64,000 nt of DNA from an uncultured Bacteroidia bacterium (lineage in GTDB: Bacteria > Bacteroidota > Bacteroidia > Bacteroidales > UBA932), in NCBI GenBank assembly GCA_902779785.1, contig CACZDC010000002.1:47263-111262 (forward strand). The letters are read 5' to 3'. Shown piece by piece: positions 2,378 to 64,000 of the stretch. A model generated the notes under the pieces. The model ran no database searches, was not told the DNA's origin, and saw only the letters and a program-made list of their open reading frames with translations. The position numbers were made by a program, and so were the translations under genes. Numbering within the stretch: the first letter of the stretch is position 1; each line of letters starts with the position of its first letter.

Positions 2378-2389
2378 TGTTTTTTGCAA

Positions 2390-7195: not shown

Positions 7196-7222
7196 CGCGC
7201 GCGTGTATTGCAAACGCGCGCG
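7196..7222. promoter_or_regulatory. CG-alternating palindrome overlapping the susC promoter (candidate operator)
   Basis: CGCGCGCGT at 7196-7204 and ACGCGCGCG at 7214-7222 form a perfect 9-bp inverted repeat around the 9-nt loop GTATTGCAA. The loop holds the proposed -33 TTG (7208-7210). A protein bound here would cover the promoter. No poly-T follows, so a terminator is unlikely. Confidence 0.5.
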
Positions 7223-7238
7223 CTATTCGCCAATTTTG
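7208..7238 (+). promoter_or_regulatory. Candidate Bacteroidota promoter for the susC operon of locus 1
   Basis: TTG at 7208-7210, then 20 nt, then CAATTTTG at 7231-7238, which matches TAnnTTTG at 7 of 8 positions. The same 20-nt spacing is seen at three other promoters in this window. The ATG of susC at 7263 would then have a leader of about 20 nt. Confidence 0.5.
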
Positions 7239-7262
7239 CACATAGCTAAACTGACAGCCAAT

Positions 7263-12278: not shown

Positions 12279-12280
12279 CT

Positions 12281-14620: not shown

Positions 14621-14624
14621 GCTT

Positions 14625-45125: not shown

Positions 45126-45147
45126 GTCCTTTTTGCTATTATTTCAT

Positions 45148-45213
45148 TTCCCGAAATTAGTTATTAAAATTCTTTACTTTGTTGATAGTCAATAAGTAAG
45201 GCCTTCCCGAAAT
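45148..45213 (+). repeat. Direct repeats TTCCCGAAAT upstream of locus 2
   Basis: The 10-mer occurs at 45148-45157 and 45204-45213, flanking the 37-bp shared element. Its core TTC-CC-GAA is a short palindrome, as expected for a binding half-site pair. Nothing is known of the binding protein. Confidence 0.4.
45158..45194 (+). promoter_or_regulatory. Shared 37-bp cis element, copy A
   Basis: It starts TAGT, contains TTAAAATT then 15 nt then AGTCAATA, and matches 63188-63224 at 27 of 37 positions without gaps. The distance from its last base to the first base of the downstream TATTTTTG box is 73 nt in both places. Further aligned blocks (TCCC; TCCnATTTTT; GAGC) lie in between. Likely an activator site for locus 2 transcripts. 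Confidence 0.6.
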
Positions 45214-45236
45214 ACAAATATCTTTCCCATTTTTAC

Positions 45237-45263
45237 AGAGCCTATCAAAAAGGCTCTTTTTTT
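45237..45263 (+). terminator. Terminator hairpin after DUF6377 copy 2
   Basis: AGAGCC at 45237-45242, loop TATCAAAAA, GGCTCT at 45252-45257, then a run of seven T. It insulates the regulator gene from locus 2; the T run leads straight into the -7 box at 45267. Confidence 0.75.
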
Positions 45264-45266
45264 ATA

Positions 45267-45274
45267 TATTTTTG
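45267..45274 (+). promoter_or_regulatory. -7 box TATTTTTG of locus 2
   Basis: Perfect TAnnTTTG match 18 bases before ATG 45293. No TTG lies at the -33 distance, which fits a promoter that needs an activator bound at the upstream shared element. Confidence 0.6.
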
Positions 45275-45292
45275 TGAAGAAACACACGTATT

Positions 45293-46318
45293 ATGCGAAA
45301 CGCTATCACTAATATCAAAGCTATTGCTTTGGCCCTGCTGTTTATGACACCGGCTGCGTTCATTCCGGCCAGTGCGAAAAAGCCTCAGGAAAAGAATTTT
45401 CTCCGGGTGCTTTACTGGAATATCCAGAACGGAATGTGGGCCGGTCAGGGGGACAATTACCAGAAGTTCGTCGACTGGATCAATTCCAAAGAACCGGATA
45501 TCTGCCTTTTCGAAGAAGGCGCTACGATCTACTACACCGGGACACACGACCATATGCCCAACGAAGAGCGCTATCTGCCCTCCCATTGGGGCGAGCTTTG
45601 CGCCAGGTGGGGACACCAGTACCATTTCGTCGTCCCGCGCCGCCCTTCGACATCGACTCCTTATGGGCTTACAAACTATCCGGGTGTGGTCACCTCACGT
45701 TTCCCGATTGACAGCATTTGCATCGTCAAGGGCAGCAAACCTGATTCGGTAGTCGTCAATTACAGCGGCTGGTATCAGATCCATGTCGACGGCGTCGAGA
45801 AGCCTCTGAACATCGTGACGGTCCACCTCAAGAACGGAAAATACGGGCGGGGAGTCCCCAAGGATCAACAAAAGGCCAGTGCTGAGAGGTACGAGGGAGA
45901 GCAGTACCGTGTCATAGAGCTTACCTGCATCCTGAATGGTACGGTCCGCAAGTCCGAAAATCCTGACAAGGAACTCTGGATTATGGCCGGAGACTACAAC
46001 TCCTACAGCCGGAAAGACAATTACAAATACAAGTGGAACAACGCTTCGCTTGGCTTCCAGGCCCAGGACTACATGATTTTTCATTCGTCTCTGTACGATC
46101 TTTTCGACTGCTGCTATCCGGATGACTTCCTGCCGACCTGCGGTAACCTGAGAATCGACTATATGTACGTCTCGAAGCCCATGCTCAAGGCTTGCATAGA
46201 CATCTATCAGCAGCCTGACGACTATACGAAGCGTGAGTATTCCGGGGTGAGTTCCTTCTACATCCCCTCCGACCACTATCCCATCATAGCGGACTTCAAA
46301 CTGTCAAAAATGAAATAA
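45293..46318 (+). CDS. Secreted EEP-family hydrolase, first gene of locus 2
   Basis: 341 residues with a signal peptide ending near 'IPASA'. Intact EEP residues: 'YWNIQNG', 'CLFEE', 'VHLKN', 'AGDYNS', 'RIDYMYV' and 'PSDHYPI'. It lacks the 'WCNSA' motif of the locus 1 enzymes and belongs to a different EEP subgroup. Predicted metal-dependent phosphodiesterase or phosphatase in the periplasm or outside; specificity unknown. The lipoprotein gene follows after 7 bases. From this gene on, CATG sites become common (first at 45782). Confidence 0.85.
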   Translation: MRNAITNIKAIALALLFMTPAAFIPASAKKPQEKNFLRVLYWNIQNGMWAGQGDNYQKFVDWINSKEPDICLFEEGATIYYTGTHDHMPNEERYLPSHWGELCARWGHQYHFVVPRRPSTSTPYGLTNYPGVVTSRFPIDSICIVKGSKPDSVVVNYSGWYQIHVDGVEKPLNIVTVHLKNGKYGRGVPKDQQKASAERYEGEQYRVIELTCILNGTVRKSENPDKELWIMAGDYNSYSRKDNYKYKWNNASLGFQAQDYMIFHSSLYDLFDCCYPDDFLPTCGNLRIDYMYVSKPMLKACIDIYQQPDDYTKREYSGVSSFYIPSDHYPIIADFKLSKMK

Positions 46319-46325
46319 GCGCAAT

Positions 46326-47204
46326 ATGGACAAAAAAGTTTTAATTCTTCTGGGTGTATCCCTTGCCGCAGTCATTTCCTGCGGTAAGAAGGAAAAGGAG
46401 ACACCGCCGACCCGGAGCGAGTTCATTACGGTCTATGAGACATCTGAGGCCAAGGCTGTGGACAACATCCAGGTCCCTTTCGAAGGGGCCCAGGATGGAA
46501 AAATCCACGTCAAGTCAAACGTTCCGCTCCAGTGGAAGTACCTGATTGACCTGAATGAACCGGACCAGGAATGGTTCTCTATCAAGTCCGTGGAAGAGGT
46601 TGAGCCGGGGCATTTCGTGGTGACCTATGACGCCGCGTCGCTTCTTCCTCTCAATTCTCTGGAGCGTCGCGACGGCAATCTGAGTTTCTCCAGCCCGGAA
46701 GCATTCCTCGGGAAATACCTCCCCATCCGCCAGGGTTATTCGCGGCGTTTTTTTGAGGACTTCTCCGACCTGAATGACGGGACCGTCACGCTGACAGGCA
46801 AGCAGACGTTCACCACGGATGAGTATCCGGAACTAAACAAGGATTTCTTTGATTACATCTCTTTCAATGCCTGGGCTGAAACGGACAATGAGTTCCGCTC
46901 GAAGAACATTACCCTGGATGTTACCGTTTCCGGCGGCATATTCTATGACACCCGACTGACAACTTTCAGAGTTAACATTCCCATTGGAACGGGTGCCGAC
47001 AAGAGCAACCTCAAATATTTCCTGCTGATGGGAAACGGTGAGAGGATGAGTTCCAAGACTCATTTCATCTTCTCTGTCGCCAACGATGACAGGGTTTATG
47101 TCCATATTGACAACTTCGCGGCATACGTTGTGACCGAGGCAGAGATGATCAGTCTGTTCGAAGAAGAAGATTTACTTGACGATGAGGAGGTAGAATGGGA
47201 ATGA
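46326..47204 (+). CDS. Lipoprotein of unknown function
   Basis: 292 residues, lipobox 'AAVISC'. The part at ~40-150 has a BACON/Ig-like strand pattern ('VPLQWKYLIDL', 'EWFSIKSVEEVEPGHF'). The rest ('FDYISFNAWAETDNEF', 'NIPIGTGADKSNLKYFLLMG') matches no family I recognise. The C-terminus is very acidic (eleven acidic residues among the last ~16). It is coupled to susC (ATGA overlap at 47201) and sits between an EEP enzyme and the transporter, so a surface accessory role in substrate capture is likely. Confidence 0.65.
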   Translation: MDKKVLILLGVSLAAVISCGKKEKETPPTRSEFITVYETSEAKAVDNIQVPFEGAQDGKIHVKSNVPLQWKYLIDLNEPDQEWFSIKSVEEVEPGHFVVTYDAASLLPLNSLERRDGNLSFSSPEAFLGKYLPIRQGYSRRFFEDFSDLNDGTVTLTGKQTFTTDEYPELNKDFFDYISFNAWAETDNEFRSKNITLDVTVSGGIFYDTRLTTFRVNIPIGTGADKSNLKYFLLMGNGERMSSKTHFIFSVANDDRVYVHIDNFAAYVVTEAEMISLFEEEDLLDDEEVEWE

Positions 47205-50200
47205 AAAAGTTTATCACACTTATTCTGGTTTGCATGACGCTCATCCCTGCGTTTGCCCAGACCAAGAAAGTCAGCGGTACGGTCCGCGACGAGAACTCCG
47301 AGGCCCTCACCGGCGCCATTGTCGTCGTCAAGAGCGGCGGAGCCAACGGCATGGTCGCATCTTCATCAACTACGGATGCCGCAGGACGTTACACCGTCCA
47401 GTGCAAGGATAACGATTACATATCCGTCCATTTCCTGGGCTACGCCGAAACGGTTTTGCCTGTCAAGGGAAAAACTACGATAGATATCACGATGATGCCG
47501 GATGCCGGCCAGCAACTTGAAGACGTCGTGGTCATCGGCTATGGTGCCGTAAAGAAGGCCGACCTAACCGGCTCCGTTACCAATGTCAAGATGGCGGAAA
47601 TTCGCGACGAGCCGGTGCTTTCCGTGGACCAGGCCCTGCAGGGCCGTATTGCCGGTATGGAAGTTACTTCCACCGACGGAGAACCGGGCTCCGACGCTGT
47701 CATCCGTATCCGCGGTACCCGTTCCATCACCGCATCCAACGACCCGCTGATCGTCGTGGACGGCGTAATGGACGCAGTTTCTTCGCTCAGCGACATCAAC
47801 CCTTCCGATATTGAGGCCATCTCGGTGCTGAAAGACGCCTCTGCGACCGCAATCTATGGCGCACGCGGCGCCAATGGTGTCATCATCATTACTACCAAGG
47901 GCAGTGCGGATGCCTCGGACGCCGGGCAGAACCTTGCCATCTCCTTCAGGGCAAGCGCCGGTGTCTCGTCGCTTCCTCGCAACCTTGACCTGATGAACGC
48001 CGAGCAGTATGGTATCTACCGCAACGAATATTTCCAGCATATAGGCACCTCCGCCAATATGGACATGACTACTCCGCTCAGCGGCATGTCCGTCAAGACC
48101 CCGTTCACCAACGGAGAGGGCACCAACTGGATCCAGGATGTCTCCCGGGTTGCGCCTTACCAGCACTATTCCCTCTCGATGAATGGTTTCGCCGGGAAGC
48201 AGAAATTCTACGCTGCACTCTCCTACAGCGACGAACAGGGTATCATCAAGGAGAGCGGCAAGCAGAACATTACCGGAACCCTCAACATCACCAACGATAT
48301 TTTCAAGTGGCTCCGTGTCTATGCCAACCTCCGTTACCAGTACCGTTTCCAGGACAACTTCCTCACGCAAATCGGCGGCGGAGGAATTCAGTACGCGGCC
48401 CAGTATCTTTCCCCGCTCATCCGGCCGAACGATTCCTACAACCCTCTGGCACAGGGTAACTCGACTATCGACAATGCTGTCGCCCGCCTGAAAGAAAATA
48501 CCGACAAGACTGACCGCAGCATGCTGAACATCTCCGTGGGCGCTAACGTCAGGATAGCCGCTCCGTTGAAGTACAAGACAAAGTTCAACTACTACTTCTT
48601 TGACCGCCAGCGCTATAAATACAACCCATCCACCCTCCCGTCAAGGACCGAGGCCATGGGTGGTTACGCCTACCGGCAGAACTACGGAGAGCAGAGTCTT
48701 TACGTTGAGAACACTCTGGAGTATTCCTGGGAAAACAAGAACCATCATTTCGACGTTACCCTAGGTCAGACTTTCAAGCATTTCACCAGCCAAGCCTTCA
48801 GCCTTGACGGTGACGGCTATATCGTAGATGAAGTCAAGTGGAACAATATGGGCGCGGTTTTGAACAAGGAAAGTTACGGTGCCAGCACCTCGAAGACAGT
48901 CAAGGACAAGATGGCTTTCTTCCTCCGTTCGAACTACAATTACAAGAGGCGTTATTACCTCACCCTCACCGGCCGTCTGGACGGGGCGTCCAATTTTGCC
49001 GCCAACCACAAATGGGGCTTTTTCCCGGCCGTGGCATTCAGGTGGAACATAGCCCGTGAACCCTGGCTCAGGAATGCCGAATGGCTGGACGACCTTTCCC
49101 TCAAACTCAGTCTCGGCCAGTCCGGAAACGACCTTAACCAGGCCTACCGTTCCCTGGCCAGGATGGACGGCAGTTCGGGTGGTTATCCCTGGAACGGCTC
49201 TTACAGCCAGGATTACTGGCAGGCGCGCATTGCGTCTCCCAACCTTACCTGGGAAACCACCACTTCGGGCAACATTGCCCTTGACTTCGCAATCCTGAAC
49301 AACCGTTTCGGCTTTACATTCGAAGCATACCGTGCGGTTACGACCGACCTTCTTCTCACCGTCAAGACTGCGCAGCATACCGGCTATGACAACAAATATC
49401 AGAATATCGGCCGTACTACCTCGCAGGGTCTGGAACTGACTCTGAATTCAAGAAACATCGTAAAGCGCGGTTTCGTCTGGACGAGTTCCTTCACGATTTC
49501 CCACAACTCCTCGATTGTGAATGATATCGGTTCGGAGGCCGAAGTCTCCTCAAGGAACTCTCCTACAGGTGGTTATATGACCATAGGATACCGTGTCGGT
49601 TATCCGGTGAATGCTTTCTGGGGATTCCAGTATGCCGGCGTTTGGCACAATCAGGAGGAAATAAATCGCAACAAGATCACCCACTCCTATGCCAACGACG
49701 CCTCTTCCACCAAACTTGGTTATCCTATCTATATCGACCAGAACCATGACGGTTCGCTGAACTCCGAGGATATTGTCTTCCTCGGCTCTCCGGACCCGAT
49801 TGTCTCCGGCGGTTTGCAGAACACCTTCCGCATCAAGGGCCTTTCGATAGGCGTGTTCTTCTCCTACTCCGTAGGCGGCAAGGCATTCAACTACTCCGAG
49901 TTCTATATGGCGGGTTCCCGCCGCACGAACCAGTATGCCTACATGGTCAACTGCTATCATCCTATCAAGAACCCGAATTCCAACCTTCCAAGGGCCGGTA
50001 TTTACGACGGTAATGCCGTGCCGAGTTCCTTCCTGGTCCATGACTCCTCATATTTTCGCCTGAAGACAGTCAGCATCGGCTATCGATTCAACCTCAAGAG
50101 CCGTATCCTCCGTGAACTCGAGGTCTCCTGCTCGGGCGAGAACTTGTATCTCTGGACCAACTACAACGGTTTCGACCCGGATGTCTCGTCCGGCGGCACG

Positions 50201-50269
50201 AACGGATACGACAATTCGTATTATCCTAAGCCCCGACGCGTGGTGTTATCATTGAAATTGCAATATTGA
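47201..50269 (+). CDS. susC: SusC/RagA-family TonB-linked outer-membrane transporter (locus 2)
   Basis: I choose ATG 47201 (MKKFITLILVCMTLIPAFAQ), which overlaps the previous stop as ATGA and follows a GGAGG-like site; ATG 47195 adds two residues. 1022 residues: signal peptide, CNA-B domain ('KVSGTVRDENSEALTGAIV'), plug with 'EDVVVIGYG', 'LIVVDGVMDAV' and 'SVLKDASATAIYGARGANG', and a barrel ending 'RRVVLSLKLQY'. Paralogue of the locus 1 SusC with many shared stretches, including 'TNYNGFDPDVS' near the end. Codon choice is visibly different (C-ending codons before Met are frequent), in line with separate recent history. Confidence 0.97.
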   Translation: MKKFITLILVCMTLIPAFAQTKKVSGTVRDENSEALTGAIVVVKSGGANGMVASSSTTDAAGRYTVQCKDNDYISVHFLGYAETVLPVKGKTTIDITMMPDAGQQLEDVVVIGYGAVKKADLTGSVTNVKMAEIRDEPVLSVDQALQGRIAGMEVTSTDGEPGSDAVIRIRGTRSITASNDPLIVVDGVMDAVSSLSDINPSDIEAISVLKDASATAIYGARGANGVIIITTKGSADASDAGQNLAISFRASAGVSSLPRNLDLMNAEQYGIYRNEYFQHIGTSANMDMTTPLSGMSVKTPFTNGEGTNWIQDVSRVAPYQHYSLSMNGFAGKQKFYAALSYSDEQGIIKESGKQNITGTLNITNDIFKWLRVYANLRYQYRFQDNFLTQIGGGGIQYAAQYLSPLIRPNDSYNPLAQGNSTIDNAVARLKENTDKTDRSMLNISVGANVRIAAPLKYKTKFNYYFFDRQRYKYNPSTLPSRTEAMGGYAYRQNYGEQSLYVENTLEYSWENKNHHFDVTLGQTFKHFTSQAFSLDGDGYIVDEVKWNNMGAVLNKESYGASTSKTVKDKMAFFLRSNYNYKRRYYLTLTGRLDGASNFAANHKWGFFPAVAFRWNIAREPWLRNAEWLDDLSLKLSLGQSGNDLNQAYRSLARMDGSSGGYPWNGSYSQDYWQARIASPNLTWETTTSGNIALDFAILNNRFGFTFEAYRAVTTDLLLTVKTAQHTGYDNKYQNIGRTTSQGLELTLNSRNIVKRGFVWTSSFTISHNSSIVNDIGSEAEVSSRNSPTGGYMTIGYRVGYPVNAFWGFQYAGVWHNQEEINRNKITHSYANDASSTKLGYPIYIDQNHDGSLNSEDIVFLGSPDPIVSGGLQNTFRIKGLSIGVFFSYSVGGKAFNYSEFYMAGSRRTNQYAYMVNCYHPIKNPNSNLPRAGIYDGNAVPSSFLVHDSSYFRLKTVSIGYRFNLKSRILRELEVSCSGENLYLWTNYNGFDPDVSSGGTNGYDNSYYPKPRRVVLSLKLQY

Positions 50270-51786
50270 TGAGCCGTATGAAAAAGTATATCAGCATATT
50301 TTTGGCTTGCGCCATTCTCTTTCCGATGGCATCCTGCGCACTTAAAGAGGATGCTTCCGTAATCGTAAGTCCCTACGACTTCTTCGAGACTCCTGCGCAG
50401 ATACGTGCTGCGCTCAACGGCTGCTACGATCCTCTGAACCGTATTCACGATCTGCGCTATTATATTGCCATTGAAGGCTCCACCGATCTTGCAATTACAA
50501 ACCATTCCGCCCAGCCGGACGCCCGCTTTGACATAAATCCGGCAAGGCCCGGTTCAGCAACCAACACCTGGCAGTACGGCTATTATGGGGTGCGCTACTG
50601 CCTCAGCACTATCGCCGGCATCCACCGCTCTTCGCTTTCCGAGGCTGAAAAAATGCCGTTCGAAGCCGAGGCCCGCATCCTCCTTTCCTATTATTATTAT
50701 GTATTGACCAGTTTCTTCGGTGACGTGCCGTTCTACGAAGACTATGTCGAGAACGAAGATGACATGCTGCGCATTGCACAGATTGGCCGCATGAGCGCCG
50801 TCGAGACCCGCAATACTCTTATCGAGGAACTTAAACTCTTCGTCCCTTCTCTTCCTCAGGTGCGTACCCACGACCAGGAGTTCAACAGTTGCGGCGCGGC
50901 GATGGGCTGGATGATGATTGCCAAGATGGCTGCATGGAACAAGCAGTGGGACGATGTGATTACCGCCTGCGAGCATCTTGTAGAAATCTACGGTGACCTT
51001 AATCAGTATGATTACAATGATGTAATGTTCCGCAACAAGAATACACCTGAGTCCATTTTCGAGATCAATCACGAATGGGAGGAAGGCGGTATCGACTATT
51101 ACACTCCAAGTTCCCTGGCGATAAGCGCTATAGTAATGCCTTACCCGAGAACCAGCGGAACAGCAATTTATGATGGCGTGACTATTTCTGAACTTGGTGA
51201 CAAATCCACCTGCTACAGGCCTGTCGCTCCTACTACCTATATGAAGAGCAATCTCGCCTCTACCAAGACCTATCCCGACGATGTCCGCCGCCCAATCAAT
51301 ATGGTGTCAAGTTGGGAAGGGAAGAATTTCAATACCACCTGGATGGGGCCGAAATTCTGGTGCCCCGACGTGTACTACAACCATGACAGAAACAACTACA
51401 AGATTTTCCGCTACGCAGACGCGCTTTTGCTTCTTGCCGAGGCCTGGTGCGAAAAAGCTGATTACTCAAAGTCGATTGACTATCTCAACAGAGTCCGCAG
51501 CCGTGCCCATATCCTCCCTTACGTTTTTGTCAGTGAGGTGAAACTCCGTGGAGAAATCCGAGACGAAAGAGCACGGGAACTCTTTGGGGAATGGGGACGT
51601 AAATACGACCTCGTCCGCTGGGGAATATGGTACGACCAGGTGGTTGCTTTCAACACCTATACGGAGGCTATGAAGAATATCCGCCCCTGCCACGAGTACT
51701 ATCCTATCCCGGACGTCCAGTGTGCCCGCTCCGGCCGTGTGCTTACGAATCCAGAGTATGACAAATATAATCTTTCAGCTGAATAA
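50269..51786 (+). CDS. susD: SusD/RagB-family surface substrate-binding lipoprotein (locus 2)
   Basis: Start ATG 50269 shares its base with the susC stop (TGATG); ATG 50278 is an alternative. About 505 residues, lipobox 'MASC'. SusD signatures: 'IRAALNGCYDPLNRIH', 'YYYVLTSFFGDVPFYEDYV', 'YADALLLLAEAWCEKADY', 'NRVRSRA' and 'EIRDERARELFGEWGRKYDL'. It closes the SusC barrel and binds ligand at the surface. Locus 1 SusD (10352) is a clear paralogue. Confidence 0.97.
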   Translation: MSRMKKYISIFLACAILFPMASCALKEDASVIVSPYDFFETPAQIRAALNGCYDPLNRIHDLRYYIAIEGSTDLAITNHSAQPDARFDINPARPGSATNTWQYGYYGVRYCLSTIAGIHRSSLSEAEKMPFEAEARILLSYYYYVLTSFFGDVPFYEDYVENEDDMLRIAQIGRMSAVETRNTLIEELKLFVPSLPQVRTHDQEFNSCGAAMGWMMIAKMAAWNKQWDDVITACEHLVEIYGDLNQYDYNDVMFRNKNTPESIFEINHEWEEGGIDYYTPSSLAISAIVMPYPRTSGTAIYDGVTISELGDKSTCYRPVAPTTYMKSNLASTKTYPDDVRRPINMVSSWEGKNFNTTWMGPKFWCPDVYYNHDRNNYKIFRYADALLLLAEAWCEKADYSKSIDYLNRVRSRAHILPYVFVSEVKLRGEIRDERARELFGEWGRKYDLVRWGIWYDQVVAFNTYTEAMKNIRPCHEYYPIPDVQCARSGRVLTNPEYDKYNLSAE

Positions 51787-51791
51787 GGACC

Positions 51792-52463
51792 ATGAAGAAG
51801 ATTACATTATATATAATGACGCTCCTTGCAGCCTTGTCCTGTGCCAAGAATGCAGAGTATGACCAGACTTTGGGGCTTCTCTCGGAGTACAATGTCCTTT
51901 CTGCCGACGGTGGCAGCACCCAGGTGGCCGTTTTCTCGAACACGGACTGGACCGTCGAGATGGACCATCCCGTATCCTGGGCGTCCATAGACCGGCTCGG
52001 AGGCAGCAAATGCAGTTATCTCGTGTTCGACTTCGAGGCGAATTTCGGCCGTGCACGCCGCGTACTTCTTGTCTTCCATGCAGGAGGCGAGACCATGACC
52101 CTGAACATGTATCAGAAAGGCCGCTTCAGCGATAGTGAATGCCAAATGACTCTCCAAACATCTTCCCTGGCAGTTTCGGCCGAAGGCGGCACGGAGGTCA
52201 TTCCTTTCTCCACCAACCTGGTGTACAGTCTTGACGAGATGTTCCTGACTCTTTCATACCCGGAAGGACAAGAGCCTGCAGCTCCATGGATCAGCCTCAA
52301 GAGTGTGGAAAAGGATAAGCTTAGCATTGAGGTTGCGCCCAATACCACCGGCGCGCTCCGTCAGGCAAAAGTGAGAATCAGCCATACGGACGCCGGCTCC
52401 TATGACTCCACTCTCGGGGACACTATTTTTTCAAACACCCTCGACGTCATCCAGACTCAATAG
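51792..52463 (+). CDS. Two-domain BACON lipoprotein
   Basis: 223 residues, lipobox 'LAALSC'. Two BACON-like Ig domains: ~30-110 ('VLSADGGSTQVAVFSNTDWT', 'TMTLNMYQKG') and ~120-220 ('LAVSAEGGTEVIPFSTNL', 'NTLDVIQTQ'). It holds the same position after susD as the single-BACON gene at 11922. Probably a ligand-binding or spacer lipoprotein at the surface. Confidence 0.82.
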   Translation: MKKITLYIMTLLAALSCAKNAEYDQTLGLLSEYNVLSADGGSTQVAVFSNTDWTVEMDHPVSWASIDRLGGSKCSYLVFDFEANFGRARRVLLVFHAGGETMTLNMYQKGRFSDSECQMTLQTSSLAVSAEGGTEVIPFSTNLVYSLDEMFLTLSYPEGQEPAAPWISLKSVEKDKLSIEVAPNTTGALRQAKVRISHTDAGSYDSTLGDTIFSNTLDVIQTQ

Positions 52464-52466
52464 CCT

Positions 52467-54698: not shown

Positions 54699-54701
54699 AT
54701 T

Positions 54702-56675
54702 ATGAAAAGATTCTTCACAATAGCAATCCTCCTGCTGCCGGCTCTGGTCGCCTGCACCGACGATTCCTCCGAGGGAAGCGAGGGTGCGACAAGCGTCGTG
54801 CTGACGGCAGAAAAAGTCGATCTCCAGGTCGGCGAGTCAAAAACCATCGGCGCCACCGTCCTTCCCGCCTCGCTCGGGATGGGCGTTGTATGGAGTGTCT
54901 TAGACGGGACCTATGCCGAGGTTAAAGACGGTACAATCACCGGAAAAGCAGAGGGCGTGACCTATGTCGTCGCCACCTCCGAGGACGGCAACCAGAAAGC
55001 CGCCTGCATGGTGAGCGTGAATCCGGCGGCGAAATATACCGTGTCCATCACAAATGATCGCGGCGTCGTCCTGACCGGGCTCTACGGCTATCCAGGCATG
55101 AAAATGGAACTTTCCGCTGTTACTTCCGACGGTGAGGAGCATAGCTTTACCTGGAGCCTGGATGAAGGGGCGGCAGGCACGGTCACCTCTGACGGTGTTC
55201 TCACTTTCGGTACTGCGGCAAGTACTGATCCAGCCTATGTATATGACTCACAGGCCTATCTGACAGTTGTTTCCGAAGAAGGTTTTGGTTGCCAGCTTCC
55301 GTTCCGGAGCAGTCTGAAAGGCGGAGTCAAGGTCGGTGAGGTCTTCTATCCTTCCGCCTCAGTCGTTACAGTCGAGGCCAATCAAACTTACCCCATGTCA
55401 GTGCTTTATGAAGGTGAACTTATTCCTGAAGCCGTCCCTACGACTGCTGTCAGTTTTGAGTTGAGTAATCCTTCTGCTTTCTCGATTCAGGACGTAGCCG
55501 GCTCATTCATGCTCGTTACCGGTGAGGAAACAGGAGTTTCATCCACCGTCACCCTCAGCCTTGCCGGCTCATCTGAAAAAGTTGATATTGCCCAACTCAA
55601 GATAGACAAGGTCTATCCTATCATAGCCCAGTTTACGGATGCTACGTCTTCAACCTTGTCCTTCCTCTGGACGGAAGGCGGCACTGAGATTGAGGATGCG
55701 CAAAAGCCTTATACCATATATCTATATAAGGATGAGGAATGCACTCAACTCGAGGTTTCCTTCAGTATTCCTGCAGGTGACGAATGCTGGAGCAACCGTC
55801 ATCCTAAGTTCATATTCTCCGGCCTTGCTCCTGACACTCCTTACTGGTTCAAGGTTGTTGATACGACTCCTCTTGAACCCGGTGAAGAGGCGATAGAATC
55901 CGGTGTGATTCCTGCGAGAACCGAGGCATTCACCCATGTCATGGTCTCCGATAACGCCGCCTCAGAAGGTGATATCATCCTTGCCGAAGACTTCGGTCAG
56001 CTCTGTTGGGGTGCGGATGCAGTCAGTCTTGCGGCCGGATATGACGTGGCCACAGCCAGCGTAGCATACAATGGTAATACCGGAAAGAGTTTTATGAGCC
56101 GTGATGCCGCTCGCTTCCGTGGACATATATCTACCGAACCATTTGGCGACAGGGTCCTTACTGCCAATTCAACCGCAAAGAAAGAGGCAGGACTCAGAAT
56201 TGCCAAGTGGGCGCAGGGCTATTATGCCAGAATTTACGTTGGCCCTGGGTATCTTTTCCTCGGCACCCCGTCATATGGTACTCATATCATAACTCCGGAG
56301 CTGATTAATATTCCGGAAGGAAAGAGTGCCAAACTGAAAGTTACGCTTCATGCGGCCGGCTATGCATCCGGAGCCAAGGCTGTTCTTGCCGTGCAGCATA
56401 TGAAAATTTCCAATGAGATATCTTCCGGTACCCAGACCAACAAGGGGAAGGACGAGCAGGGCAGGGATGCACCTATGCTCAATCTTACGGATAATAGTCA
56501 AACCATCACCTATTCCGGCGGCCTTACCAAACTCACCGAGTTTGAAATTGTCCTCGACGGTGTGGTTAAGGGAGACAGGCTTGCCTTCGGACCTACGGTA
56601 GAAATCCCTGCAAAGAGTAACAACAACATGATGCTCATCTCCGACATGACCATCCAGATACTTGAATTGCAATAA
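54702..56675 (+). CDS. Big_2 / FN3-like multidomain surface lipoprotein
   Basis: 657 residues, lipobox 'LVAC'. An Ig-like Big_2 domain (~25-110; 'VVLTAEKVDLQVGESKTIGA', 'GTITGKAEG') and a second Ig-like domain (~115-205) lead to an FN3-like domain (~310-395; 'FIFSGLAPDTPYWFKVVDTT') and then a beta-sandwich I call the AEDF unit (~420-655), which opens with 'GDIILAEDFGQLCWGAD' and ends in 'MTIQILELQ'. The FN3-AEDF pair occurs twice more in the protein at 56838. The function is unknown; carbohydrate binding is plausible. No counterpart in locus 1. Confidence 0.7.
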   Translation: MKRFFTIAILLLPALVACTDDSSEGSEGATSVVLTAEKVDLQVGESKTIGATVLPASLGMGVVWSVLDGTYAEVKDGTITGKAEGVTYVVATSEDGNQKAACMVSVNPAAKYTVSITNDRGVVLTGLYGYPGMKMELSAVTSDGEEHSFTWSLDEGAAGTVTSDGVLTFGTAASTDPAYVYDSQAYLTVVSEEGFGCQLPFRSSLKGGVKVGEVFYPSASVVTVEANQTYPMSVLYEGELIPEAVPTTAVSFELSNPSAFSIQDVAGSFMLVTGEETGVSSTVTLSLAGSSEKVDIAQLKIDKVYPIIAQFTDATSSTLSFLWTEGGTEIEDAQKPYTIYLYKDEECTQLEVSFSIPAGDECWSNRHPKFIFSGLAPDTPYWFKVVDTTPLEPGEEAIESGVIPARTEAFTHVMVSDNAASEGDIILAEDFGQLCWGADAVSLAAGYDVATASVAYNGNTGKSFMSRDAARFRGHISTEPFGDRVLTANSTAKKEAGLRIAKWAQGYYARIYVGPGYLFLGTPSYGTHIITPELINIPEGKSAKLKVTLHAAGYASGAKAVLAVQHMKISNEISSGTQTNKGKDEQGRDAPMLNLTDNSQTITYSGGLTKLTEFEIVLDGVVKGDRLAFGPTVEIPAKSNNNMMLISDMTIQILELQ

Positions 56676-56692
56676 TTGAAAAACCATATAAG

Positions 56693-56824
56693 ATGGAAAC
56701 CAAAAAAACTTACACTGCGCCCGAATGCAGGATCAGGCTCTCGTGGATAGCCTCGTCCATGCTGGCGAGCACAACGCTCGACCCCATCACTGACAATGGT
56801 GAAACAATCGAGTGGGATGATTAA
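56693..56824 (+). CDS. Small peptide (43 aa), type 2 of the 'YxAP ... acidic tail' family
   Basis: A complete ORF METKKTYTAP... to ...ETIEWDD, 17 bases after the previous stop and 13 before the next lipoprotein start. It shows the same plan as the peptide at 4214: basic N-terminus, Y-x-x-P at 7-10, central 'MLASTT', acidic/Trp end. The central position occupied by Cys in the other two is Ala here. Too short for routine gene calling. Confidence 0.55.
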   Translation: METKKTYTAPECRIRLSWIASSMLASTTLDPITDNGETIEWDD

Positions 56825-56837
56825 AATGTACTGCCTT

Positions 56838-59800
56838 ATGAAAAAGATTTTACTCCTTTCCGCTGCAGTACTTTCAATCATTGCAGCCGCTTCCTGCGCC
56901 AAGGAAGAAACCGGTCCGGAAAGTTTCCGCACCATAATCAACGCCAGCCTCGCCTCTACCAAGACCGCCCTCGGCGACAAGGAAGGCACATCCTGGCCCA
57001 ACTACTGGAAAACCGGCGACAAGATCAGTGTCAACGGAGTCGCTTCCGAAGCGCTTGCCGCGGAGTATGACGGCAAGGCCTCGGCAAGCTTCACCTTCGA
57101 AAGTCTTGTCGAGACTCCGTACTGCGCCATTTATCCCGCATCGGCGCTTGAGTCTTACAGTGACGGCAGCGCTACAGTAAGCCTTCCTGCTGTCCAGGAA
57201 TATGTCGCAGGTTCATATGATCCTTCGGCTTTCATTATGGGCGGAAAGAGCACTGAGGCTTCTTCAGTGGTCCTTTCTCCTTGCGTAAGTATTGTCCACA
57301 TCAGCCTCAGCGGCACAGAGTCCATAAGCAAAGTCAAGCTTACAGGTCCTGCCGGCTCAGTTCTCAGCGGTACTTTTACGACCAATTTCAGCACTTATAC
57401 TCCTCAGCAGAGCGTTTCCAACGAGGTGGAGATGGTTCCGGAGAATCCGGTTGCCCTGCCGGCAGAGTTTTTCATCTGCGTGCCCGCAGGTCTCAGCGGC
57501 TCCCTGAAAGTTGAGGCCTTTGACAACGAGGGCGGTTCCATGACAAAGAATGCGACCGTCAAATCGCCGCTCGCCGCAGGTCAGATGTACTCTCCTTCGA
57601 CAATTCCTTATACCGCATCCTATGACATTGCAATCAGTGCGGAGTGCATTACAAGTTCTACTGCCGTAATTTGCTGGGATAATTCTCCCGCTGCCGCCTA
57701 TACCATAGGAGTGTACTCCGACGCGGCTTGCTCCGCGCTCGTTGACAGTTATGCGGTTGAGGCAGGCAGTTCCTGCTGGGCTGACAAATCGCCCCGCTTC
57801 TGCATCAGCGGCCTTGCTGCAAATACAACTTACTACGTCAAGGTTACCAATGCGACTCGCAGTGTGGACAGCAATATCCTTCCCGTCAAGACGTCAGAGT
57901 TCGAAATCGTTCAGGTTTCATCTACTCCCGCTGATGAAGGCGATGTGATCCTGGCTGAGGACTTCAGCGAACTCCGCTGGGACTGCGACATGATAGGTAA
58001 TGGCGCCGGCTGGTTCCCGACTTCAGAGGCGCAGACCTCCTTCGGAACCGTTGAAGTTGGTTCATGGCAGGCTGCAGCCACCGCCAATGAGAAACAACTT
58101 TCTTCCCAGACAAACGCTCTGGTCTATAGCCGACTGATGAACTGGGCACAGGGTGCCAACAAGAATATGTACATCCACCCGGGTTATCTCAAACTCGTCG
58201 GCAGCAAGAATGTTACCCACCTTGTGACTCCGGCGCTCAACAATATTCCGGACGGCTTGACTGCCACCCTTAAGGTCGAGGTGACCGCCAGCAGATACTA
58301 CAGCGAGTCCAATGGCACCTTTGCTACAGACAAGGCCATCGTTGCCGTCCAAACCGGCAACGAAATCGGCGAACTCATCGCCGATGCGACGAATAAGCTT
58401 GACCTTTCATCCAACATCGCTTCCTTCAGCCTTAAGGACGAAGTTGCCTGGAACACATACACAGTGACTGTCAGCAACGTTGTCAAGGGCAACCGCCTCG
58501 CTTTCGGCGCTGACAAGTCCGTCTCCGGCAACGATGCCCGTATGAACATCAGCGACATCAAGGTCACCGTCGTTGAACTCCTCGCTCCCGGCGAACTTTC
58601 CCTCAGCCTCAAGGAAGTGAGTTCCAGCACGGCAAGCTTTACCTGGACCCATGTCGGCTCAGATGCGGCATATGACATTTCCAAGGCCTATCTTGCCGCC
58701 ATTTACAGCGATTCCGACTGCCTCAACCTTGTCGCATCCTATGCGATTCCGGCAGAAAGCGGATGCTGGGACAACAAGCAACCTTCCTTCGTTTTCTCCG
58801 GACTTGCGCCCTCCACGAATTACTGGGTCAAGGTGACTGACACTACCGAGGATGTTGATTCCGAAGTTGTCAGTTGCACCACATCGGCCTTTACAGTGGT
58901 TGACGCCACTACCGTCAGCAATGCCGGCGTAGGCGACGTGATTCTCGCGGAAGACTTCTCTGAAATTGGCTGGGGTGCTGAAGAGCTTACCACATCAGCC
59001 GGCTTCTATCCTACTTCCAAGAGGCTTGACGCCCCCTCCGGCGCCTATACTACTGACGATGGCGCTTTCTCCAAGTACAATGGACAGGCAGGCCGTCTTT
59101 ACGGAGACTGCAAGGTGGAGAGCGACAAGAGACTCTTCAACTGGGGCTTCTTCGGCAACAGCAACGTCTTTGCATATGCCGGTTATGTCCGTGTTGGAGC
59201 GGCTTCTTCCGGTGCGAACACGCACATCGTTTCTCCGGCTCTCAGCGGCATTCCTTCCGGTAAGAAAGCAACCATTGACGTGACAGTAACCGCCGGGCAG
59301 TATGCCACCAATGCCAACGATGTTGCCGTTTTCGTCGAAAAGGCTTCTGACATGTCTCTGGTGCTCGCTCCTGACGAGAAAGACAACAGCGATTTCTCCA
59401 GCAAGGGTGGCAAATATTTGGGCGCCAGCCTTGCCAAGACCAGTGCTTATCCTTTGAATGCAACGACCCGTGCATGGACGACGAGTACCGTCCGCATTCC
59501 GAATGTCACAAGTGACACCCGTCTCCTCTTCGGCTCCTATGATAACAACGACACAAAGAACCGCTTCTTCCTCAATGATGTCGTCGTAAAGATTGTCGAG
59601 CTTAAGGATCAGGACGCCGTTGACATTGAGGTGAATATCCAGGATTTCGAATCCTTCAAGGCTTTCCTGACCGCCTGGGAGCCCGGAAAGGCTGTCAGAG
59701 GCAATGTGGTCGCCGACATCACGCTCACATCCGAACAGCTTGCGGAGATTGACGCCCTCTATCCTGTGGCTGATTTCGACGGAATTCTCAACGGTAACGA

Positions 59801-61196
59801 CCACACCATTACCGGCCTCACCAAGCCGCTTTTCAACGATTTCCGTGGTACGGCAAGCAAGCTTACGCTTAATTCCACGCTGAACATCACGGATGCTCAG
59901 GACAAAGTTGGTATCTTTGCAAAGAGCGCAACAAATGCGACTCTCACTGGATGTGTTTCGAAGGGTTCCATCGCACATGCTTCCTCGACCTCAGTTGACG
60001 GAGAACTCATTATCGGAGGTTTGATAGGCAGCATTTCAGAGAGTACCCTTATCACCTGTCAGAATCAGGCCAGCCTCTCCAATACCACTACCGCTACTGA
60101 ATATGTCAGGATGGGTGGTCTTGTGGGCTTTGCGGACGGGGCCAACACCCTCTCCGGAGATGCGGATAACTATAACAGCAATGCAGGTACGCTTCTGGAG
60201 AATTCCGAATCCACCTATATTGCTGTGGGCGGTATCTGCGCTTTGGCAAACGATTCTTCCACTAGTCTGGACTATGCCAGGAACCTGGAAGACGGCGATA
60301 TCACTATAAGCGGAGGTACAAGGTATTATACCTATGTCGGCGGCGTACTCGCCTGCAACAGTTCTACGCCCAGCTTCTCTTACACTAAGAACGCCGGTGA
60401 CATTACCTTCTCTGAGCTTACTGTTTCCCAAGCTGTGTATGCCGGTGGTATCCACGGAGGATTCCTTGCAAACGGCTCACATACCATTACCGGTTGTGAG
60501 AATACCGGAGATATCAACTGTCCGAATTTAGGAGGAAATGGCGGCAATATGGCAGCATCAGCTAAAATCTCTGTTGTTACCTACATTGGAGGTATTTCAG
60601 CTGTCGCAGGGGATGGTGCCGCAAGAACATCAAAGGTTTTCAACAATTGTGTTAACAGAGGTAATATAACTGTTTATAATCAACTTTGGACCCGACTGGG
60701 GGGCTGCTTCGGCTATGGAAACAAGAATCCAAGCGGCTGCGAGAATCATGGAAAGATTGTGTATTACCTCAAAGATGTTAAGACTCATAAGCAGAATGGA
60801 GCGATAGGTGGCGTCATCGGTTATATCAACATCGCTTCCGTGTCCAATCTTACCAATACCGGAGGTGTACAGAGCACAGGTTCTTCACCAAACTGCTACA
60901 CAGGAGGAATCGTTGGACAGGAAGGTGGTAATATGGATACCATGACAGATTGCTACGTCGGAAAATCCGGAGTCAATATCGTTGGCGCAGGAAGCGGCTC
61001 ATTTGGCGACACCGGTGCAGGTTTGTTCGTCGCTTCAAAGACAGCCAAGGCCTGGACATTCACGGGTTGTAAAGTTATTAACGGAACCAAATGCCAGGGC
61101 ACGGTAATTACCGATGAAAATATGGCCGATGCCGTTGTAGGTCGTAAGCATGCTACGTCCATAACCGATCCGCCAACCCTTGTTGATAGTTTCTAA
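56838..61196 (+). CDS. Giant surface lipoprotein: fimbrillin-like, 2x FN3-AEDF, GLUG-like repeats
   Basis: The ATG at 56838 (MKKILLLSAAVLSIIAAASC) gives the lipoprotein signal; 1452 residues, the longest protein here. Fimbrillin-like domain ~25-255 ('WKTGDKISVNGVAS', 'YCAIYPASA', 'YVAGSYD'); FN3-like ~260-350 and AEDF unit ~365-575; a second FN3-like ~580-680 and AEDF unit ~695-925; then GLUG-like repeats from 'FDGILNGNDHTITGL' to the end ('GGLIGSIS', 'GGLVGFAD', 'GGVIGYIN'). The two FN3-AEDF pairs look like an internal tandem duplication. Both ends match the protein at 21860, as if the FN3-AEDF block had been inserted between its halves. Likely an adhesin or binding protein. Confidence 0.78.
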   Translation: MKKILLLSAAVLSIIAAASCAKEETGPESFRTIINASLASTKTALGDKEGTSWPNYWKTGDKISVNGVASEALAAEYDGKASASFTFESLVETPYCAIYPASALESYSDGSATVSLPAVQEYVAGSYDPSAFIMGGKSTEASSVVLSPCVSIVHISLSGTESISKVKLTGPAGSVLSGTFTTNFSTYTPQQSVSNEVEMVPENPVALPAEFFICVPAGLSGSLKVEAFDNEGGSMTKNATVKSPLAAGQMYSPSTIPYTASYDIAISAECITSSTAVICWDNSPAAAYTIGVYSDAACSALVDSYAVEAGSSCWADKSPRFCISGLAANTTYYVKVTNATRSVDSNILPVKTSEFEIVQVSSTPADEGDVILAEDFSELRWDCDMIGNGAGWFPTSEAQTSFGTVEVGSWQAAATANEKQLSSQTNALVYSRLMNWAQGANKNMYIHPGYLKLVGSKNVTHLVTPALNNIPDGLTATLKVEVTASRYYSESNGTFATDKAIVAVQTGNEIGELIADATNKLDLSSNIASFSLKDEVAWNTYTVTVSNVVKGNRLAFGADKSVSGNDARMNISDIKVTVVELLAPGELSLSLKEVSSSTASFTWTHVGSDAAYDISKAYLAAIYSDSDCLNLVASYAIPAESGCWDNKQPSFVFSGLAPSTNYWVKVTDTTEDVDSEVVSCTTSAFTVVDATTVSNAGVGDVILAEDFSEIGWGAEELTTSAGFYPTSKRLDAPSGAYTTDDGAFSKYNGQAGRLYGDCKVESDKRLFNWGFFGNSNVFAYAGYVRVGAASSGANTHIVSPALSGIPSGKKATIDVTVTAGQYATNANDVAVFVEKASDMSLVLAPDEKDNSDFSSKGGKYLGASLAKTSAYPLNATTRAWTTSTVRIPNVTSDTRLLFGSYDNNDTKNRFFLNDVVVKIVELKDQDAVDIEVNIQDFESFKAFLTAWEPGKAVRGNVVADITLTSEQLAEIDALYPVADFDGILNGNDHTITGLTKPLFNDFRGTASKLTLNSTLNITDAQDKVGIFAKSATNATLTGCVSKGSIAHASSTSVDGELIIGGLIGSISESTLITCQNQASLSNTTTATEYVRMGGLVGFADGANTLSGDADNYNSNAGTLLENSESTYIAVGGICALANDSSTSLDYARNLEDGDITISGGTRYYTYVGGVLACNSSTPSFSYTKNAGDITFSELTVSQAVYAGGIHGGFLANGSHTITGCENTGDINCPNLGGNGGNMAASAKISVVTYIGGISAVAGDGAARTSKVFNNCVNRGNITVYNQLWTRLGGCFGYGNKNPSGCENHGKIVYYLKDVKTHKQNGAIGGVIGYINIASVSNLTNTGGVQSTGSSPNCYTGGIVGQEGGNMDTMTDCYVGKSGVNIVGAGSGSFGDTGAGLFVASKTAKAWTFTGCKVINGTKCQGTVITDENMADAVVGRKHATSITDPPTLVDSF

Positions 61197-61257
61197 TCCT
61201 CTCTATTATCCCGGGCGCCCTGACCGGCACCCGAGGTACAAAATAAATAGTACGACT

Positions 61258-63129
61258 ATGAAAAAGAAGTTAGTTTTTGTAGCCTTTGCGCTTTTGGCGC
61301 TCTCTTGCACCAAGCAGCAGGAAAGTACTCTTACGACAGACGGCGGAGCTAGAGTTTTTAAGATTACTGCCTCTGTCGATGAGACAAAGACTACCCTGAG
61401 TTATGATGGCTCAGTCTATAAGATTTTATGGGCTACCGGAGACAAGATTTCCGTCAACAAACAGGAGTCTAATGCGGTCAGCTCTTCGGACAACGGCAAG
61501 AAGAGCGTCAATTTCACCGTTACGCTCGACGGGAACGCCCCTTACAAGGTCCTCTATCCGGCTAATACTTCATCAGATAAAGTCGTCAGCCTTCCTGCGA
61601 CCCAGAACTATGTAGCCGGCAGTTTCGACCATCGTGCGGCTCCGATGTACGGCAACGCGACGGTGCTGGGTGAGAACGATTGCAGCGTTAAACTCAGCAA
61701 TTTCTGCGGTATGCTGCGTTTCGCCCTCAAGGGCTCTGCAACTCTCGACAGGATTGAGATTAACGCACTGGGAGGCGAGAATCTTTACGGTAATTTCACC
61801 CTTGATACAAACGATACCGGTTTTAACGGCGAATTCAGCGGTGGCACCGCGGGCACGTTGACCTGCGACCTCAATGACCTCGTCCTCAGTAACACTGACA
61901 CACCTATCTATGTTCCGATTCCGGCCCAGACCTATTCTTCCGGCCTTGAAGCCCTGGTCTATCAGGCTGACGGTGCCTTCATGCGCCTGAAGTTCTGGGG
62001 CAGCAGCAGCGTTGACCTCCAGGGCTCCGACATCGCAGAGTTCGAGTCCAAGACCTTCGCTGCCGGACGTACGGAGAACATCTTTACTATCAATAGCTTA
62101 ACGGCTGAAGACGGCGGCGAGCCCACTGCTACGCCTCCGGGAATCACCGTCGGCGTATACAATATCAAGATGGCTGAGAACCGTTCAGGCGATAACTCCA
62201 CTTACATAAGCATGGACCGTTCCGATGTCCAGGCCGGTCTTGGCTCCAGCATCGCGGGTATGGCAGCGGATATCTTCGGAATCAACGAAATCGGTGAGGA
62301 TAACATGCCGGGAAAGACGCATGACATCAAGGCTTGGGCCATCGCCCAGGGGCTCTCCAGCAGCGATTACACCTGGAAGATGAATTATCCAAACAAGGTG
62401 AGCAGGGACGGCAACATTATTACTGGTTACACGTATTCCGCCGAAATGTATTACGCCAACGTTTTCGTCTATAACAAGAATACCATCGCGGTAGAAGATG
62501 ATGGCTACGTGTGGCTTTGTAACGATAAAGACGATTACTGGTCTTCTGCAAAAAATGCCTACGAACACAGCACAGGCCGCCATACGGCAGTATATGCCAA
62601 ATGCCGGCACAAGGTCTCAGGCCAGCGTTTCTGGTTCATCGTGACTCACTTTGACACCTATATTAATAACGATGACGGCGACAACCTTAACAACGTCAAG
62701 AGTTTCAAGACATTCGCCCAGCATCTGAAGGACGATGTGGAAGACCTTCCCATAATTGCCGTAGGAGACCTCAATTTCGGTCCTAAGGAACAGGACAAAA
62801 CCACCGACTGCCCCAACTATCTTGAACTTACGTCTTACTGGACCGATGCTTACGACAAGGTCAAGGCCGACGGCAATATGACCGATTACTACAAGAAGTA
62901 CGATGGCACCCAGACCGGCAGCCAACACAACTATTACTATTCCTTCCTTGAGTTCACGAAGAACCATCCGGACAGACGCCTGGACCACATAGTCACCAAG
63001 AACAGTGCTTCTCAGAATGTGACTCCAATCTCATACAAGACCATCCGCAGGACCTATGTCGCCGAGGATGACAATACCTGGTGCCCTTCAGACCACCTGC
63101 CAGTTGTTGCATATATATGTTTCGATTGA
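61258..63129 (+). CDS. Lipoprotein: fimbrillin-like domain fused to EEP hydrolase (locus 2)
   Basis: Start at ATG 61258 (MKKKLVFVAFALLALSC); 623 residues. Fimbrillin-like domain ~20-290 ('WATGDKISVNKQES', 'YKVLYPANTS', 'PMYGNATV', 'NFCGMLRFALKGSATL'); EEP domain ~320-623 with 'GVYNIK', 'GINEIGED', 'VTHFDTY', 'GDLNFG', 'RLDHIV' and 'SDHLPVV', all catalytic positions occupied. Same architecture as the protein at 20004, but the EEP half is of another subgroup. The fimbrillin half is almost the same as that of the truncated gene at 63495, a recent duplication. Confidence 0.83.
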   Translation: MKKKLVFVAFALLALSCTKQQESTLTTDGGARVFKITASVDETKTTLSYDGSVYKILWATGDKISVNKQESNAVSSSDNGKKSVNFTVTLDGNAPYKVLYPANTSSDKVVSLPATQNYVAGSFDHRAAPMYGNATVLGENDCSVKLSNFCGMLRFALKGSATLDRIEINALGGENLYGNFTLDTNDTGFNGEFSGGTAGTLTCDLNDLVLSNTDTPIYVPIPAQTYSSGLEALVYQADGAFMRLKFWGSSSVDLQGSDIAEFESKTFAAGRTENIFTINSLTAEDGGEPTATPPGITVGVYNIKMAENRSGDNSTYISMDRSDVQAGLGSSIAGMAADIFGINEIGEDNMPGKTHDIKAWAIAQGLSSSDYTWKMNYPNKVSRDGNIITGYTYSAEMYYANVFVYNKNTIAVEDDGYVWLCNDKDDYWSSAKNAYEHSTGRHTAVYAKCRHKVSGQRFWFIVTHFDTYINNDDGDNLNNVKSFKTFAQHLKDDVEDLPIIAVGDLNFGPKEQDKTTDCPNYLELTSYWTDAYDKVKADGNMTDYYKKYDGTQTGSQHNYYYSFLEFTKNHPDRRLDHIVTKNSASQNVTPISYKTIRRTYVAEDDNTWCPSDHLPVVAYICFD

Positions 63130-63187
63130 CAGGGCTCTTTCAGGCGGAATTTAATTACTTATTCGCAAACAATTTATTTCCTAAAAA

Positions 63188-63224
63188 TAGTATTTAAAAT
63201 TATTTAATAGTCTGTCAGTCAATA
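63188..63224 (+). promoter_or_regulatory. Shared 37-bp cis element, copy B
   Basis: Gap-free match (27 of 37) to 45158-45194, with the same TTAAAATT - 15 nt - AGTCAATA core and the same 73-nt step to a TATTTTTG box. It lies in the 211-base gap after the EEP lipoprotein, which suggests that a new transcript of the same regulon begins here. Confidence 0.6.
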
Positions 63225-63273
63225 TAATATATATTCCCTTTTCGCGTGCGTATTTCCTATTTTTCGCGAGCGC

Positions 63274-63304
63274 TTGCACCTTACGCGTGCGGGAGGTATT
63301 TTTG
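63274..63304 (+). promoter_or_regulatory. Promoter of the third small peptide / fimbrillin gene
   Basis: TTG at 63274-63276, 20-nt spacer, TATTTTTG at 63297-63304 (perfect -7). The surroundings are rich in CGCG steps (CGCGTGCG at 63243-63250 and 63284-63291), like the susC promoter at 7208. Confidence 0.65.
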
Positions 63305-63340
63305 TAAAGTTAATGCACAAAACAACAAACCATATACGTT

Positions 63341-63475
63341 ATGAAAAAACACTATCTAACACCTTTTCTTGAGGTAATCCGCATCCAGACATTTGAAGTC
63401 ATTTGCGGTGGAGCTTCGGGTGAAGACATGATCCCGAATCAGAGCTTGGGAGGCTATGATGATGACTCCGATTAA
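63341..63475 (+). CDS. Small peptide (44 aa), type 3 of the 'YxxP ... acidic tail' family
   Basis: A complete ORF MKKHYLTPFLEVIRIQ... to ...GGYDDDSD, with its own promoter 37 bases upstream. Y-x-x-P at residues 5-8, 'VICGGAS' at 20-26, acidic tail. It precedes the truncated fimbrillin-like lipoprotein by 19 bases. A GG pair after the Cys could be a processing site, as in double-glycine leader peptides, but no matching peptidase or transporter is in the window. Confidence 0.6.
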   Translation: MKKHYLTPFLEVIRIQTFEVICGGASGEDMIPNQSLGGYDDDSD

Positions 63476-63494
63476 CACTAAAACGAAATCACTT

Positions 63495-64000
63495 ATGACA
63501 AGTTTTATGAGGAAAATCGGATTCATCCTGCTTGCATCAAGCTGGATTATTCCGTCCTGCTCCAAGCAGCAGGAGAACACTCCTGCGACAGACGGCCCGG
63601 CCAAGCTTTACAAGCTCTCCGCCTCTGTCGATGAGACGAAGACCACCATCGCTAAAGACGTCGATGTTTACAAGATTAAGTGGGCGACCGGTGACAAGAT
63701 TTCTGTCAACGGCCAGCTGTCCAATGAAGTGAGTGCTGCCGACAACGGGAAGAAGAGCGTCAATTTCACCGTCACTCTTGGCGAGACCGGTCCTTACAAG
63801 GTCCTTTATCCCGCTACCACATCCGAGAATGTCGTTTCTCTTCCCGCCACTCAGAACTACGTGGCCGACAGTTTCGACCCCGCGGCCGCCCCTATGTACG
63901 GCAACGCAACGAAGAGGGGAGACAACGAGTGCAGCGTGAAACTCTCCAATTTCTGCGGTATGTTGCGTTTTGCTCTTAAAGGCAGCGCTACACTCGACAG
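63495..64000 (+). CDS. Fimbrillin-like lipoprotein, N-terminal part (3' truncated by window end)
   Basis: The frame is open from ATG 63495 (alternative 63507) to the right edge, 168 codons. The signal peptide has lipobox 'IIPSC'. The sequence follows the protein at 61258 closely ('ASVDETKTT', 'WATGDKISVNGQLSNEVS', 'GKKSVNFTVTLG', 'SLPATQNYVA', 'NFCGMLRFALKGSATLD'), so it is a recent paralogue. Whether it also carries a C-terminal EEP module cannot be seen. Confidence 0.8.
   Translation, partial: MTSFMRKIGFILLASSWIIPSCSKQQENTPATDGPAKLYKLSASVDETKTTIAKDVDVYKIKWATGDKISVNGQLSNEVSAADNGKKSVNFTVTLGETGPYKVLYPATTSENVVSLPATQNYVADSFDPAAAPMYGNATKRGDNECSVKLSNFCGMLRFALKGSATLD

Follow-up and report, generated by a model that had tools for sequence, protein, structure and literature searches.

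The locus and its CATG border

The stretch of DNA analysed here (the window, 64,000 nucleotides) forms the terminal 64 kb of a contig of 111 kb in the genome assembly of an uncultured Bacteroidia bacterium; this source genome (G000) comprises 2.78 Mb in 126 contigs, with 95% completeness and a contamination of 4.79%. The features of the window, including a locus for a SusC-like/SusD-like pair in resident DNA and a second one, locus 2, toward the contig end, are as follows:

1-44710, no strand: resident DNA purged of CATG, with four CATG before 44,710, that at 44720 lying just beyond the fitted border (counts, change-point fit)
7203-16478, + strand: resident SusC/SusD/DUF5689/beta-helix locus, without CATG and with partial similarity to the locus 2 relatives
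7203-10352, + strand: SusC-like protein of the resident locus
10352-11932, + strand: SusD-like protein of the resident locus
12281-14620, + strand: DUF5689 protein of the resident locus
14544-16478, + strand: beta-helix protein of the resident locus
43548-45125, + strand: DUF6377 protein gene, with one CATG
43960-45780, no strand: border interval, best position 44,710 (change-point fit)
44711-64000, no strand: CATG-rich island (locus 2), up to the contig end (counts, two-state and change-point fits)
45293-46318, + strand: endonuclease/exonuclease/phosphatase-family protein, locus 2
46326-47204, + strand: protein without Pfam or NCBIfam match, kept in related loci
47195-50269, + strand: SusC-like TonB-dependent receptor, 74-83% identical to those of four other genomes
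50266-51786, + strand: SusD-like protein, locus 2
51792-56675, + strand: three genes, with BACON, DUF5689 plus BACON, and Big_2 domains
56796-61196, + strand: large protein of 1466 aa, with an fn3 match of 28.2 bits (cut-off 25)
61180-63129, + strand: 649-aa protein without Pfam match, with a weak C-terminal exodeoxyribonuclease III-like match far below the cut-off

The three BACON/DUF5689/Big_2 genes probably code for surface proteins, to judge by their domains, and the 1466-aa protein also has matches to Pur_ac_phosph_N and Peptidase_M26_N, both below the cut-offs. The CHU_C family has no match in the source genome, the control being likewise silent. Each of the two SusC/SusD loci has a DUF6377 gene upstream (2384-4018 and 43548-45125); the former gene lacks CATG, and the latter sits at the island border.

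An exact count left of position 45,126 returns precisely the five CATG (7062, 7075, 36039, 36885 and 44720) that the preliminary description had listed by eye, against a zero-order expectation of 175 (its own figure was about 180) and a Markov expectation of 140 (observed/expected 0.04). To the right, where it had put about 50, there are 53, the first at 45,782 and the last at 63,427, against a Markov expectation of 80 (0.66), so that the density is anything but similar on the two sides. The G+C content is nearly the same (0.526 left, 0.514 right), and when all 136 strand-merged tetramers are compared CATG differs most between left and right (25-fold, binomial p = 6.5e-23); the runner-up by p-value, CAAC, differs 2.3-fold. 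As a separate observation, CTAG is depleted on both sides of the window (15 of 38 expected on the left, 3 of 16 on the right); this word is under-represented in most genomes, according to Rusinov et al. (2015; PMC4687349).

A one-change-point Poisson fit places the change best at 44,710, with a 2-log-unit range of 43,960-45,780, and a two-state fit starts the island at window position 44,689 (contig C2 position 91951 minus 47262). The gap between the DUF6377 gene and locus 2, with which the border had been equated, falls inside the fitted range, but the best position suggests that the border may lie within the DUF6377 gene (43,548-45,125) rather than 3' of it.

Islands in the source genome and relatives of locus 2

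A two-state fit of CATG covering 788 kb of the source genome separates resident DNA with 0.076 sites per kb from islands with 3.11 per kb. The islands number 21 and make up 17% of this sample; 13 are flanked on both sides by purged DNA and 8 touch the end of a contig or of a stretch, among them the whole of contig C60, which is sparse (15 sites in 13.9 kb). For locus 2, the contig includes only the left border. The alternation of low and high density is thus widespread in the genome, but it is not without relation to gene origin, the pattern that had been named as speaking against acquisition: the high stretches are gene- or operon-sized, some consisting of a single gene, and those whose proteins were read (eight from islands, besides two neighbours) carry SusC-like TonB-dependent receptors, restriction systems and an integrase, with a Type I restriction locus and the integrase sharing one island. 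The enclosed islands accordingly have what is expected of genomic islands, namely a composition unlike the surroundings, sharp borders and embedding in resident DNA. One two-gene cassette, which pairs a C5 methyltransferase with an NgoMIV-type endonuclease and has seven CATG (L113:13058-14852, corresponding to G000:C1:213058-214852), sits exactly between the gene for a class II tRNA synthetase (D/K/N type) and murB, both without CATG.

Among 24 loci found, four (L062-L065) carry close relatives of the locus 2 SusC (74-83% identical), and the gene order of locus 2 is common to orthologous loci of congeners. With GCATGC as a stand-in for CATG, counts are ordinary in the genomes of L062, L064 and L065 (518, 609 and 566, respectively), i.e., relatives of the island occur in genomes without avoidance; the genome of L063 has fewer (235 in 2.0 Mb), an intermediate density. 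The DUF6377 gene is perhaps part of the locus 2 cassette, since one also lies upstream of the relative in L064 and L065 and a fragment (the gene end) at the start of the L062 contig; tblastn found none in the L063 stretch. Its history may nonetheless differ from that of the SusC gene, because over its length it is 59% identical to its counterparts in L064 and L065, versus 74 and 83% for SusC.

Whether such DNA has been adjusted can be read from a five-way alignment of about 9.5 kb of the window and L062-L065. Where at least two of L062, L064 and L065 have CATG, the window keeps 9 of 22 sites (41%), close to the 42% of the median word, so locus 2 is not yet adjusted and has suffered no CATG loss so far. 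When the consensus is instead defined for L063 by sites where two or more of the other four sequences have CATG, that locus keeps only 3 of 25 (median word 40%), and 14/23, 12/21 and 15/20 consensus sites are kept in L062, L064 and L065, respectively. In L063, removal of CATG thus looks to be under way, possibly in mid-course. Taken together with the islands elsewhere in the genome, the median-like retention upholds the earlier proposal that locus 2 is acquired, unadjusted DNA: it looks like one of many genomic islands.

Loss of the DNA site within genomes and across the genus

Stretches with at least three sites in 3 kb were masked before resident counts were taken in the source genome and in a distant species of low density, G043. 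The host avoidance already suspected from the window is borne out by the coding sequence, with observed/expected ratios of 0.017 in G000 (35 versus 2089 expected) and 0.042 in G043 (50 versus 1198). It extends to intergenic DNA (7 versus about 45 expected in G000, 2 versus about 33 in G043), including divergent intergenic regions (none versus about 10, the two genomes pooled), although in G000 the intergenic DNA is less purged than the coding DNA. All three codon phases are affected in resident DNA: C precedes ATG in 1.1% of cases versus 40.6% for other A-codons, histidine is coded by CAT in 4.3% before G versus 61.6% otherwise, and NCA stands before TG in 1.1% versus 13.0%. Histidine before G-codons is no rarer in resident DNA (420/1514) than in islands (50/174), from which it follows that CAT was exchanged for CAC rather than the residue lost. 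The avoidance therefore targets the DNA site, in every codon phase and between genes, mostly by synonymous changes, and an RNA-only cause or deamination alone is disfavoured.

The process can be followed between two species, the high G023 and the low G047, in an alignment of 46.9 kb, made up of nine blocks that passed an 80% identity threshold and range from 84 to 97%. Only 8 of 114 G023 sites survive in G047, whereas other tetramers with at least 40 occurrences have a median retention of 67% and a next-lowest value of 43%. TATG/CATA accounts for 70 of 106 replacements. Reading frames were accepted only where more than 55% of differences fall at third codon positions, which framed 101 of the 114 sites, a single one of them in the xCA|TGx phase; 80 of the 97 changed framed sites are synonymous. 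At xxC|ATG, 4/90 sites are intact and the C is kept in 10/90, versus 1484/1685 for xxC before other A-codons, which puts the loss rate of C before ATG at about 17 times that of matched control codons. None of ten CAT|G is kept (six became CACG, three TATG with a His-to-Tyr change, and one CTGG), while before other codons 55 of 79 CAT are kept and 15 became CAC. With G011 as outgroup, nine ancestral CATG can be inferred for the rpoB region; G047 has lost seven of them and G023 one, which places the recent gain of the trait on the G047 side.

Across the genus, genomes were called low at fewer than 50 GCATGC per Mb, a density uncorrected for base composition. In a first set, 11 of 49 genomes were low, the source genome included, and in a larger draw 43 of 400. 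GCATGC falls below half of the reversed control word in 35 of the 43 low congeners and in one of 32 non-congeners; four of these 32 have fewer than 50 per Mb, and in three of the four the control word is scarcer still. The idea of two clean modes within the genus did not hold up, since the 400 genomes form one main mode from which a long tail extends to the left. In an rpoB tree (gene obtained from 26 of 34 genomes, seven low ones included) the low genomes lie on separate branches: G000 groups with three high genomes (100/100), G047 adjoins the high G023 (100/97) and both join the high G011 (100/100), and the other low genomes are weakly supported or in polytomous positions. On this tree, avoidance would have arisen repeatedly within the genus.

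Candidate agents and competing explanations

Methyltransferases were sought in 28 genomes (11 low and 72-97% complete, the intermediate G041, and 16 high), and none of the six families searched is found throughout the low genomes while missing from the high ones. D12 occurs in 1/11 low genomes, C5 in 2/11 and N6_Mtase in 4/11; N6_N4 exceeds the cut-off in 5/11 and Eco57I in 6/11, including one match read as housekeeping-type; MT-A70 has none in the 28 genomes, its control also being silent. NlaIII has the specificity CATG, and an NlaIII-like pair had been suggested as the thing to look for. Such a pair would share the target seen here, but it was not found: ICEA (PF05315), which we take to be the NlaIII-type family, matched none of 81 genomes, the control genomes likewise being silent. 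A scan of proteins from 60 sources for [DNS]PP[YFW], with PrmC, TrmN, RlmD etc. set apart as housekeeping by reading, gave 10 matches, two of them read as DNA methyltransferases, both in islands.

The source genome does carry an array of systems: the NgoMIV-type pair, a PstI/SdaI-type pair, two MmeI-type IIG enzymes (L241:2972-5776 with three CATG, L242:388-3222 with 12), the Type I locus and a Type III-like methyltransferase (type assigned by reading). The relatives of its two visible pairs presumably cut GCCGGC and CTGCAG-type sites, and both words are hardly avoided (0.84 and 0.88). The PstI/SdaI-type pair lies near ATP synthase genes (L240:172-2705, on G000:C46), with two CATG in the 8 kb examined, and is perhaps an older resident. 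As the agent it was rejected on the CTGCAG ratio and on the methyltransferase matches of other low genomes, which by reading look different.

These patterns are probably best accounted for by strong purifying selection on CATG at the level of DNA, most likely through Type II-like restriction, with locus 2 as an acquired island. A CATG-specific activity of this kind would occasionally cut sites of the host, so that over time nearly all resident sites would be lost through any substitution compatible with the coding sequence; DNA acquired from congeners not under this pressure would arrive at normal CATG density and stand out as sharp islands, of which locus 2 (from about 44.7 kb) would be one as yet unadjusted. 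The selection would act in the source species and in about one in ten of the genomes examined from the genus, and a restriction-modification system that is also mobile fits best as the agent. Four observations run contrary to this reading: an agent gene common to the low genomes was not found in the six methyltransferase families and ICEA, the depletion of CATG far exceeds that of GCCGGC and CTGCAG, intergenic DNA of the source genome is less purged than coding DNA, and C-to-T is over-represented among the changes at lost xxC|ATG sites, with His-to-Tyr at three of ten CAT|G.

PMC4687349 reports that orthodox Type II sites are avoided, which it explains by protection that fails now and then and by vanished systems that have left their traces. 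The present case is like those described there in the genome-wide depletion of a short palindrome even without a visible system, and unlike them in that congeners differ in the trait and acquired islands can be made out gene by gene; the resident observed/expected ratio here is about 0.02-0.05, and no agent gene was found in the families searched. One may ask if a CATG restriction system has since been lost, or resides on unbinned plasmids or mobile elements, with the avoidance as its trace—a possibility that overlaps the selection reading and is to be entertained only tentatively. It would suit the lack of a shared family among those searched and the separate branches of the low genomes, and PMC4687349 also records avoidance in genomes whose relatives alone encode the system. 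Yet G000 and G043, two distant species, retain very little CATG, so that the loss would need to be recent in each, and the locus 2 relative in L063 looks as if caught amid removal.

The results indicate an agent missed by the family searches made here; gaps in the assemblies, too, may hide it. A precedent is UpaP162 of Ureaplasma parvum, a CATG system in which, according to PMC6191088, an endonuclease is joined by a methyltransferase that blocks NlaIII. The endonuclease of this system is without homology to reported ones, which makes an unrecognised CATG enzyme plausible here too; the likeness is one of target. A bolder proposal, and a rather doubtful one, is that a CATG-directed cutting or damaging system outside the known methyltransferase families spreads in the genus and purges genomes fast.

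Mutation without selection, e.g., deamination of a methylated C in CATG, is improbable as the whole cause. The preponderance of TATG/CATA among the replacements, the three His-to-Tyr changes and the excess of C-to-T at xxC|ATG (64 of 80 changes, versus 121 of 201 in the control) are what it would produce, and this last excess makes a cytosine-directed mutational component beside selection possible. Against it, CAT|G went to CACG in 6/10 cases, versus 15/79 to CAC before other codons, the xxC|ATG cytosine also went to A more often (12/90, versus 36/1685), and histidine before G is not depleted in the source genome.

That locus 2 was joined by an error of assembly or binning, the other option raised in the preliminary description, is more unlikely still. 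Its extension to the contig end, the eight islands that touch ends and the stated contamination leave some room for it, but the 13 enclosed islands, some of a single gene, speak against chimerism as a general cause, and the order of DUF6377 and locus 2 recurs at L062, L064 and L065, with a DNA identity of about 68-72% that would be too little for a joint at shared words. Base-calling errors at methylated CATG, though such errors are known from long-read assemblies, can practically be dismissed, as the changes follow codon phase with mostly synonymous outcome and islands on the same contigs retain CATG.

Among open-access literature, no title reporting such CATG avoidance was found; the word CATG is contained in PMC3849833 (H. 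pylori) and PMC9516812 (marine methylation). In these low-CATG genomes, CATG acts as a natural stain for recent transfer with a resolution of about 1 kb, even without a G+C difference, and intermediates such as L063 suggest a clock. By comparing congeners that avoid CATG with others that do not, both the rate and the cause of restriction-site avoidance can be tested directly, and the best material for finding the agent is offered by four congeners (G340, G368, G358 and G324) that have only 9-19 GCATGC in 2.0-2.7 Mb.
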